In this document: positions 232 to 4,222 of the stretch, piece by piece
Layout of the letters: every line of letters begins with the position of its first letter
Position numbering within the stretch: the stretch's first letter is position 1
Assembly (NCBI GenBank): GCA_016790285.1
Contig: JAEUPJ010000083.1
Coordinates: forward strand, 32,151 to 96,150
Length of the DNA stretch: 64,000 nucleotides
Direction of reading: 5' to 3'
Origin: Roseateles sp.
GTDB lineage: Bacteria > Pseudomonadota > Gammaproteobacteria > Burkholderiales > Burkholderiaceae_C
Program-made: the position numbers and the translations under genes
The notes under the pieces: generated by a model
The model's database searches: none
What the model saw: only the letters and a program-made list of their open reading frames with translations
Told to the model about the DNA's origin: nothing

Positions 232-2152
<1,921 letters not shown>

Positions 2153-2157
2153 ACCAC

Positions 2158-2186
2158 TGGTCAGGCATCCAGTAGTGCTGTATAAA
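2158..2186 (+). promoter_or_regulatory. Sigma-70-type promoter overlapped by the LexA box
   Basis: A -35-like TGGTCA (2158-2163) is separated by 17 bases from a -10-like TATAAA (2181-2186). The -10 lies inside the CTGT-N8-ACAG palindrome, so LexA binding would block polymerase. Transcription should start near 2193, giving a leader of about 20 bases before the small ORF at 2215. The hexamers are read by eye, and the -35 matches consensus at four of six positions. Confidence 0.6.
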
Positions 2187-2193
2187 CTTACAG
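2178..2193. promoter_or_regulatory. LexA (SOS) box
   Basis: The 16-mer CTGTATAAACTTACAG fits the proteobacterial SOS consensus CTGT-N8-ACAG exactly. It is extended by flanking TG and CA that keep the palindrome going. It covers the -10 element of the promoter at 2158-2186 and sits 21 bases upstream of a start codon with a good ribosome site. It lies downstream of the argG stop, so it does not belong to argG. Confidence 0.75.
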
Positions 2194-2214
2194 CACTTTC
2201 AGTGGAGCCTGACC

Positions 2215-2295
2215 ATGCATCACCAATACCGCCAGAACTACGTCCCGAGCCGCCCGCTGCCGCGCTGGCTGCAACTGTTGATCCGCTGGCTCTGA
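2215..2295 (+). CDS. Putative SOS-regulated 26-residue peptide
   Basis: A 26-codon ORF with a GGAG ribosome site at 2204-2207, seven bases before the ATG. It lies directly behind a LexA-box-covered promoter. The peptide begins MHHQYRQNYVPSRPLPR and ends WLQLLIRWL. It has four arginines and a Trp/Leu-rich, potentially amphipathic C-terminal third. An imperfect hairpin (CTGACC at 2292-2297, GGTCAG at 2317-2322) follows the stop and could slow transcription before the convergent ligase gene. I do not recognise the family. The size and charge recall SOS-induced membrane peptides such as TisB, but that is analogy only. Confidence 0.6.
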   Translation: MHHQYRQNYVPSRPLPRWLQLLIRWL

Positions 2296-2318: not shown

Positions 2319-3104
2319 TCAGGCGTCGTCGGCGATACGCAGGAAGCTGGCAAAGCGCGGTTTGCCCGCAGGTGTCAGGTCACGGTAGCGGTACGTCACG
2401 CGTGACCCCACCGGCGGAGGATGGCGGCGCTGGTCGTCCGTGAAGCCCGTGCCGAGCTTGAAGCGAATGCCCTCCGGCGTCTCCAACTCCAGCGCGCCCA
2501 TCAGGCCGGCAAACCGCCCCCTGCCAGGTTCATGGGCCACGACCGTCGCCTCGGCGTCCAGCTGGGGCTTGAGCTTGAGCAGCCGGTCGCTGCGGCCGGT
2601 GGCGGGCGGCGCGTCCGCCCGGTGCAGCATCAGACCCTCACCCCCAGCCTGGACGACAGCCCGCAGCCGGGCCTGCAACGCTGCGGGGGAATCGATGCGA
2701 TCCTGCGCCACCGCCACGACCAGCCCCCCGGCGAGCGCCTGGATGCGCTGCGCCCGTGCCTCGAACGAGCCGCCGGCCTCCGGCAGCTCGAACACGTGAT
2801 ACCGCACGCGACGCCACTCGGCGTCCTGCGGCTCGCTGCGCCGCACGATGGCCGAGAGCTCGTCGAAGGTGCGGCGCCCCATCCACAGCTCGCCATCCAG
2901 GGCTTGCCGCGGCAACCCGGCCAGGAACCACGCGGGTGCGGCCACCACACGGCCGCTGCGAAACCTGAGCACCTGCCCGTCCCACAGGGCGCGCACGCCG
3001 TCGAGCTTCTCGCTCACAAGGTAGCCGCGCGGGTCGATGCCCGCTGGCGCACTGCGGGCCAGCAAGGGCTCCAACGCCCGCGCGGGCCCGCCGCCCAGGC
3101 CCAA
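2319..3104 (-). CDS. Periplasmic-type ATP-dependent DNA ligase
   Basis: A small ATP-dependent DNA ligase of the bacterial Lig E type, which seals nicks via a covalent lysine-AMP. The adenylation motif is SEKLDGVRALWDG, with the nucleophile Lys in KLDG about 33 residues from the start given here. Later motifs include DGELWMGRRTF, GEGLMLHRADA and RLLKLKP. A hydrophobic leader (RRLLLGLGGLLGLGGGPARALE) precedes the catalytic domain and suggests export. The start is uncertain: there is no ATG, GTG or TTG at the expected place just after murB. The codon at 3138-3140 reads GTC where GTG would be expected, so I used the next in-frame TTG (3104). It converges with the SOS-type small gene. Confidence 0.8.
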   Translation of the reverse strand: MGLGGGPARALEPLLARSAPAGIDPRGYLVSEKLDGVRALWDGQVLRFRSGRVVAAPAWFLAGLPRQALDGELWMGRRTFDELSAIVRRSEPQDAEWRRVRYHVFELPEAGGSFEARAQRIQALAGGLVVAVAQDRIDSPAALQARLRAVVQAGGEGLMLHRADAPPATGRSDRLLKLKPQLDAEATVVAHEPGRGRFAGLMGALELETPEGIRFKLGTGFTDDQRRHPPPVGSRVTYRYRDLTPAGKPRFASFLRIADDA

Positions 3105-3142
3105 CAGGCCGCCCAGGCCGAGCAGCAGGCGGCGCGTGACGC

Positions 3143-4222
3143 CTACAGCACCACGGGCTCCGGCTCCAGACGGATGCCAAAGCGCCCATAGACGCTTTCC
3201 TGGATCGCCCGCGCCAGGGTCACCACCTCCGCCCCCCGGGCATCGCCCTTGTTGACGAGCACCAGGGCCTGCTTCTCGTAGACCGCCGCCCCGCCCACCG
3301 TTTTCCCTTTCCAGCCGCATGCGTCGATCATCCAGCCGGCAGCCAATTTGACGCTGCCATCCCCCATCGGGTAGTGAACGATCCCCGGGTCGCGGTCGAT
3401 GATGTCGCGGCACTGCTCGGCGGTCACCACCGGGTTCTTGAAGAAGCTGCCCGCGTTGCCGATGACGGCTGGATCAGGGAGCTTGGCGCGCCGAACGGCC
3501 ACGATCCAGTCGAAGATCTGTCGGGCATCGGGGCTGCGGATGCCCGTCTCGGCCATCTTGCGCTCGATCTCGAGGTAACCCAGCACCGGCTGCCAGGGCC
3601 GCGGCAGCCGAAAGCGCACCCTCGTGATGACGCTCTTGCCCGCCAGGCCGCCGAAATCGGAGTGCTTGAAGACGCTGTCCCGGTAACCGAAGCGGCAGAC
3701 TTCGGCCGGCAGCAGCGCCGGCCGGCCGGTGATGAGGTCCATCACCTCCATGGCCTCCAGCCTGTCCTTCACCTCGATGCCGTAGGCGCCGATGTTCTGC
3801 ACCGGTGCCGCGCCCACCGTGCCCGGAATGAGGGCCATGTTCTCGAGGCCCGGGAAACCGTGGTCCAGCGTCCAACTGACCAGCTCATGCCACGGCACCC
3901 CGGCGCCCGCCTCCACGATCCAGGCGTCGTCGCGCGCTTCCAACAGCCGGATCCCGGTAATTTCCACCTTGAGCACCACGGCGTCGACGTCGCGGGTCAG
4001 CACGAGGTTGCTGCCGCCGCCCAGCACGAACTTGGGCGCGCGGCCGAGATCCGGGTGGTCCACCACCCGGCGCACATCGGCCGCCTCGCGGATGCGCACC
4101 AGGCGCCGGGCCACGGCCGGCAGGCCGAAGGTGTTGTAGGACTTCAGGTTCACGTCCGTCTCGACCTGCAGCCCGGGGGCTTCATTCGAGGGGGTTGGTG
4201 TCGTGACGGGAGGAATGGACAT
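3143..4222 (-). CDS. murB: UDP-N-acetylenolpyruvoylglucosamine reductase
   Basis: A cytosolic FAD enzyme that reduces UDP-GlcNAc-enolpyruvate with NADPH to UDP-MurNAc in peptidoglycan precursor synthesis; 359 residues. The FAD-binding signature [12 protein letters not shown] is near residues 65-76. It is followed by [19 protein letters not shown] and, in the C-terminal domain, NAGSFFKNP with the catalytic serine, and a terminal LEPEPVVL. I chose the ATG at 4222 (MSIPPV); an upstream in-frame ATG would add 20 unlikely residues. The stop lies at the beginning of the DNA ligase leader on the same strand, so the two are probably co-transcribed. It is divergent from yajQ with 75 bases between the starts. 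Confidence 0.96.

Follow-up and report, generated by a model that had tools for sequence, protein, structure and literature searches.

We analysed a 64,000-nucleotide (nt) stretch of Roseateles sp. DNA (contig JAEUPJ010000083.1, positions 32,151 to 96,150 of the forward strand; hereafter the window), in which a putative micropeptide gene lies between argG and a DNA ligase gene. argG (836..2152, + strand; argininosuccinate synthase, NF003779 at 868 bits) is upstream and co-directional, and the ATP-dependent DNA ligase gene (2319..3164, − strand, start approximate; NF006592 at 334 bits) is convergent. On the + strand between them, a −35-like TGGTCA (2158..2163) is separated by 17 nt from a −10 element, TATAAA (2181..2186), which falls within a predicted LexA box, CTGTATAAACTTACAG (CTGT-N8-ACAG; 2178..2193). 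A Shine-Dalgarno sequence, GGAG (2204..2207), follows 7 nt from the ATG of an open reading frame (ORF; 2215..2295, ATG at 2215, TGA ending at 2295) for the 26-residue peptide MHHQYRQNYVPSRPLPRWLQLLIRWL. The −10 element and the Shine-Dalgarno sequence were both read and aligned. A preliminary description of this locus, made from the sequence alone, had proposed a LexA-controlled peptide gene here; its coordinates and spacing for box, promoter, ribosome site and ORF were correct on re-reading of the sequence, and the protein family matches on either side bear out the placing between argG and the ligase gene.

The micropeptide gene and its predicted LexA control

The preliminary description had also held that this arrangement is hard to get by chance. 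The evidence from the single sequence is modest, and the box alone is unremarkable: no exact CTGT-N8-ACAG other than the peptide box occurs in the window, and shuffled sequences contained 0.69 on average and at least one in 49 of 100 cases. A strict promoter scan of the window listed no promoter at the peptide locus, because the scan requires T at the last −10 position; the promoter score exceeded its shuffled null at 17 of 20 Roseateles loci and at 44 of the 61 loci scored in all. What upholds the claim is that box, ribosome site and ORF are conserved together, as they are in all 20 of the genus members and in most relatives of other genera. A chance palindrome is thus ruled out by the conservation of peptide and box across Roseateles and other genera.

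Roseateles, as used here, includes Pelomonas, and the loci compared are not independent, as several come from the same genus. The peptide was encoded in all 20 Roseateles genomes searched, that of the window included (E ≤ 1.2e-7), with one copy per genome at E ≤ 1e-3, and an exact CTGT-N8-ACAG was located 36–40 nt 5′ of the ATG at every one of these loci. Fourteen of the loci follow argG, at five the neighbouring gene is transcribed divergently and one (L016) was not assignable; the box and the ORF are therefore kept in more than one setting. Across the Roseateles peptides 12 of the 26 residues are invariant. The ratio of nonsynonymous to synonymous substitution rates (dN/dS) was 0.27 in frame (190 pairs), compared to 1.03 and 1.85 in the two shifted frames (189 and 183 usable pairs), and dN was below dS in 185 of the 190 in-frame pairs. 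Although these Nei-Gojobori estimates from 26 codons are rough, the substitution pattern indicates that the ORF is coding.

The window's genome contains eight unique places with the sequence CTGTAT-N6-ACAG. They precede recA, imuA, parE, a DNA-repair radical SAM gene, a probable PA0069-type radical SAM gene (a partial match, under the cut-off) and the peptide gene; the other two, one near a chemotaxis gene (L182) and one at L185, may be chance occurrences. The same type of site before core SOS (DNA-damage response) genes of the same genome, together with the conservation of the box in relatives, supports the earlier proposal of a LexA-controlled gene. As judged from these comparisons, the peptide gene is almost certainly coding and under LexA control; LexA would be expected to bind the box and DNA damage to induce transcription from a predicted start near 2193. 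The site of parE (topoisomerase IV subunit B) is positioned approximately 100 nt 5′ of the gene (L181:1501-1516, with parE from 1615 onward and cut by the locus end). In addition, the 12 Roseateles lexA loci that were read, of 13 (L195–L206), have tandem variants, CTGG-N8-ACAG and mostly CTGG-N8-CCAG, located 19 nt apart. Given that the lexA sites begin with CTGG, CTGG half-sites elsewhere are credible.

Distribution across the family and neighbouring genes

The first profile search met distant copies of the peptide, several of which had exact boxes. A broader profile of 19 rows, run on 399 genomes of the Comamonadaceae-like family, yielded 67 places at E ≤ 1e-3, of which 18 were already known and 49 were new; among the latter, 37 had an exact box within 110 nt, four had a box with one mismatch and eight had neither. 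A further profile of 47 rows matched in 39 of 200 family species and 28 of 141 genera (E ≤ 4e-4). All of these 39 species carried an exact or one-mismatch box upstream, which in G032 was about 176 nt away, or a partner gene, described below, in front of the peptide gene. By comparison, random 130-nt stretches contained an exact box in 0.13% and a one-mismatch box in 1.8% of cases, and none of the six places read among the eight weaker ones (E ≥ 8.5e-4) carried a box. The accepted match in G162 (L265) has no start codon in frame and may be a decayed copy.

The family consensus, drawn by eye, is M-x(2-8)-[YLF]-RQ-x-Y-x-P-x(3-6)-P-x-W-L-x-R-x-W-x-W-[LF]-stop, and W-[L/F/C] is the C-terminus of 67 of the 68 members. 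L166, L167, L263–L265 and L158 form a MHKPSRYVFRPARPAPALLRRIWAWF-like subfamily whose operator is a variant, CTGAT-N7-ACAG. The peptide is present in two or three divergent copies in some genomes, such as G108 (L147, L149 and L170) and G274 (L120 and L140). In genus g14 the peptide gene of L070 (L071 being similar DNA) is followed immediately by a 78-residue ORF matching DUF7661.

No convincing relative outside the family was found in order-level samples of 250 and 200 genomes, which share members. The best match there (G518, E 1.1e-4) was partial and at a contig edge, and an exact box was present at none of the five outside-family places scanned of eight. A phage or plasmid origin was considered and rejected: viral contigs contained no relative of the Roseateles peptide, the lone phage match at E 9 being meaningless, and plasmids contained no relative of the one family member tested; plasmids searched with the partner likewise gave no match.

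Two kinds of neighbours recur. At three loci of two other genera dinB is directly 3′ of the peptide gene, on the same strand and behind the LexA box (dinB loci listed: L068, L069, L159 and L095; the one tested matched Pfam IMS and IMS_C). The partner gene encodes a protein of about 60–95 residues with the pattern MNAPLLPEIL...EGVxRYVWExRFGxMLIEVxxGxAYVNG. It adjoins the peptide gene at 17 loci, being downstream at 10 and upstream at seven, with an overlap of 1–4 nt at six of the latter; in G108 every peptide copy sits behind it. When 20 of 21 partner places were scanned (L242 was left out), an exact box was present in the 400 nt upstream of eight, some of these boxes being the peptide's own, and eight others had no more than a one-mismatch box in the upstream 200 nt; two had neither and two (L257 and L258) were unparsed. 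Ten of the parsed places had no peptide within 700 nt, and of these three carried an exact box, six a one-mismatch box and one none. Thus, the partner (L238–L256; e.g., L245:1501-1716, L244 and L247–L251) is a candidate SOS gene family itself, with or without the peptide. Neither the peptide nor the partner matched a known family in NCBIfam or Pfam, apart from one PHROG match at E 0.048. The structural model of the partner was of low confidence, with a mean predicted local distance difference test (pLDDT) score of 68.8 and a predicted template modelling (pTM) score of 0.43, and a PDB search with it found nothing below E 0.8.

The hairpin at argG-linked loci

A long hairpin can form at the argG-linked loci from the sequence between −57 and +1. 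Its outer stem, in the window, is formed by the 5′ arm TGGTCAGGC-A-TCCA (2158..2171, + strand) and the 3′ arm TGGA-GCCTGACCA (2203..2215, + strand), which spans the ribosome site and reaches the start-codon A, where the stem closes. The 5′ arm is not part of the predicted SOS transcript; because a messenger RNA (mRNA) starting near 2193 would lack this arm, the hairpin is predicted to hide the ribosome site only in mRNA that reads through from argG.

With the box and 6 nt on each side of it left out, the outer arms exceeded shuffled arms in complementarity (p < 0.05) at 12 of 14 argG-linked loci, as opposed to one of six unlinked loci (L014, p 0.048). Pairing between arms of the same locus gave −19.3 kcal/mol, compared to −15.95 ± 0.73 kcal/mol when arms were exchanged among 13 distinct loci, a difference reached by none of 10,000 permutations. 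Judged by these sequence tests, the arms at argG-linked loci are complementary. The predicted openness of the ribosome site and AUG was lower in read-through than in SOS mRNA at 13 of 14 linked loci (all except L007) and at two of six unlinked loci. On the alignment, 11 two-sided changes were counted, compared to 5.8 after shuffling (reached in 4 of 500 shuffles), and the covariation score was reached by one of 500. Five of these changes are in the outer helix, in four pairs, and several outer pairs are broken in some loci.

Several observations weigh against a hairpin function. Two argG-linked loci, L008 and L019, fail the complementarity test; the LexA palindrome itself makes up the inner helix, where six of the 11 two-sided cells lie; of five pair measures, two were ordinary (35 of 500 and 264 of 500 shuffles); and all of these statistics ignore kinship, and argG linkage may coincide with a clade. 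The hairpin was also rejected as a trait of the whole family: outside Roseateles, where the orientation of the upstream gene was assigned by a composition rule rather than by annotation, only three of 47 loci reached p < 0.05, which is near chance.

We consider that the hairpin probably serves as a translational lock against presumed read-through from argG. It could instead protect the 3′ end of the argG mRNA or act as its processing signal, as its near confinement to loci with argG upstream would suggest, but we regard this as unlikely: in most linked loci the base of the hairpin is at the start-codon A of the peptide and the ribosome site is included, and the lowered openness of that site distinguishes the linked from the unlinked loci. 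If true as read, the argG-linked hairpin would be a clear example of protection of a chromosomal gene against read-through, and such protection argues that stray expression of the peptide is costly.

Possible function and relation to known SOS-induced peptides

We propose that LexA bound over the −10 element would keep the peptide promoter closed. Upon DNA damage, LexA cleavage would permit synthesis of a short mRNA from near 2193 with an open GGAG, and the peptide would accumulate. In argG-linked Roseateles a second lock would operate, in which the 5′ arm (2158–2171) of a read-through transcript pairs with 2203–2215, masking both ribosome site and start codon, so that leakage stays untranslated. 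The peptide would then most likely bind a target and slow growth or division during DNA repair. The placing of LexA over the −10 element, a perfect box as opposed to the weaker-looking variants of lexA, a ribosome site that only the proper transcript leaves open and the single gene copy of a basic peptide together suggest a product that is harmful when mistimed. A toxin-like action, as the preliminary description had suggested, may accordingly be supposed on sequence grounds, and we put the chance that the peptide is an SOS-induced inhibitor of growth or division at about even.

The peptide has a polar/aromatic YRQ-Y-P front, a short helix and a conserved Trp-Leu/Phe end; for a 32-residue family member, AlphaFold2 predicted an extended front and a nine-residue helix (23–31), with a mean pLDDT of 74.9 and a pTM of 0.26. 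The amphipathic tail noted in the preliminary description holds for the window peptide, whose C-terminal moment was reached by only 0.6% of shuffles. It did not hold more widely, as none of the three peptides of other genera tested was significant (10–23%), and this counts against the proposed role. Other points do so too. No hydrophobic stretch of 15–20 residues is present and hydrophobic runs in the sequences tried did not exceed five residues; it therefore lacks the transmembrane character of SidA and TisB. About 80% of the sampled family species have no detectable copy, and the peptide is therefore not a universal division brake. Of the eight boxless places in the 19-row search, the partner gene precedes the peptide gene at six and a box is present at −164 at another; the last, a partial match in G404 (L022) that was read once and counted as a miss, has neither.

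SulA was not matched in any of the 13 Roseateles genomes searched. Weak SulA matches occurred in 31 of 200 family genomes, 11 of them above the cut-off, and 26 of the 31 were in frames of 246–341 residues, which are presumably ImuA. An argument from a missing SulA is only suggestive.

The strongest alternative, although a rather improbable one in our estimate, is that the peptide is not a growth inhibitor and instead serves as a cofactor or regulator of SOS repair proteins, such as DinB (Pol IV) or the partner protein. The positions of dinB and of the partner beside the peptide gene are in its favor, as are the LexA-like boxes carried by the partner alone. However, most of the copies read stand alone, and neither neighbour was found beside the peptide at the 20 Roseateles loci, where ORFs above 60 residues were listed. 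The partner is present in 15 of 200 family genomes, and among the three Roseateles genomes in that search only G008 has it, at another place. The double locking and the similar size of known SOS brakes (SidA and TisB, as far as excerpts of their descriptions go) therefore favor an inhibitory peptide over a cofactor.

Much less probable is a peptide that acts in the ribosome tunnel as an endogenous translation brake resembling proline-rich peptides. Apidaecin-type peptides act in the tunnel, and the short, basic window peptide, with its Y-x-P core and strictly kept C-terminal pair, may be similar to them. It has few prolines, though, and matched nothing at E ≤ 10 among PDB chains of at least 20 residues, a weak test for likeness to ribosome-bound peptides of solved structures; a C-terminal helix is predicted for a family member, whereas apidaecins bind in an extended form. 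Bacterial cells have been used to screen synthetic genes for apidaecin, according to excerpts of the study (PMC11347161). A regulatory RNA or leader with an incidental ORF, which the very short gene and the strong hairpin might suggest, is the least probable of all, given that purifying selection acts in the coding frame only, that the ORF but not the hairpin is kept across genera, that the ligase gene next to the peptide gene is convergent and that no Rfam match approached its gathering score (one sub-threshold match had E 0.23).

We tentatively suggest that these genes constitute a new SOS micropeptide family, so far unannotated, across the Comamonadaceae-like family and serve as a lineage-specific damage checkpoint. 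It would be doubly locked, by LexA and the hairpin, in argG-linked Roseateles, and its C-terminal Trp-Leu/Phe may act on the divisome, a translesion polymerase or the ribosome tunnel. Known SOS brakes of division or growth vary by lineage, and ORFs so small are often passed over by gene callers. The gene, its switch and its family are defined in tractable environmental bacteria, and the natural variants, in which the peptide gene is alone, with the partner or before dinB, should help to find the target.

No earlier description of small LexA/SOS genes of this kind in the group was found among the entries listed from the open-access literature searched, with subscription journals and preprints outside the search. 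The nearest account is a study of 2012 that, in excerpts, predicted two LexA-regulated hypothetical genes, hypA and hypB, in beta-Proteobacteria, in a set that includes Variovorax (PMC3323433). They resemble the genes described here in being unnamed, predicted to be LexA-regulated and of the same class, a comparison made by description rather than sequence, and one of them could in principle be the partner. SOS micropeptides are known already, while the present peptide family, its partner and the proposed read-through lock are, as far as could be seen, apparently undescribed.

As described in excerpts of the respective papers, two known peptides are closest in kind. SidA of Caulobacter crescentus is an SOS-induced, LexA-controlled division inhibitor of 29 residues that is located in the inner membrane and acts on FtsW (PMC4211646). 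The Roseateles peptide is similar in its LexA control and size (26 residues), but differs from inner-membrane SidA in having no segment of transmembrane length. TisB of the tisB/istR-1 system of Escherichia coli is a LexA-controlled, amphipathic peptide of 29 residues, whose production is limited by mRNA structure (PMC11449926). LexA control and similar size are shared with the Roseateles peptide, as is an mRNA structure that here would limit output. In contrast, the membrane helix of TisB is 20 residues long and its antitoxin is an antisense RNA, whereas the predicted helix here has nine residues, the SOS leader is predicted to span just some 22 nt and the structure would guard against read-through rather than act in the gene's own transcript. 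The peptide did not match the SulA family models of Pfam and NCBIfam, and SidA, with no model among those searched, was outside this comparison. The Roseateles peptide may work like brakes of the SulA, SidA and TisB type without belonging to them.
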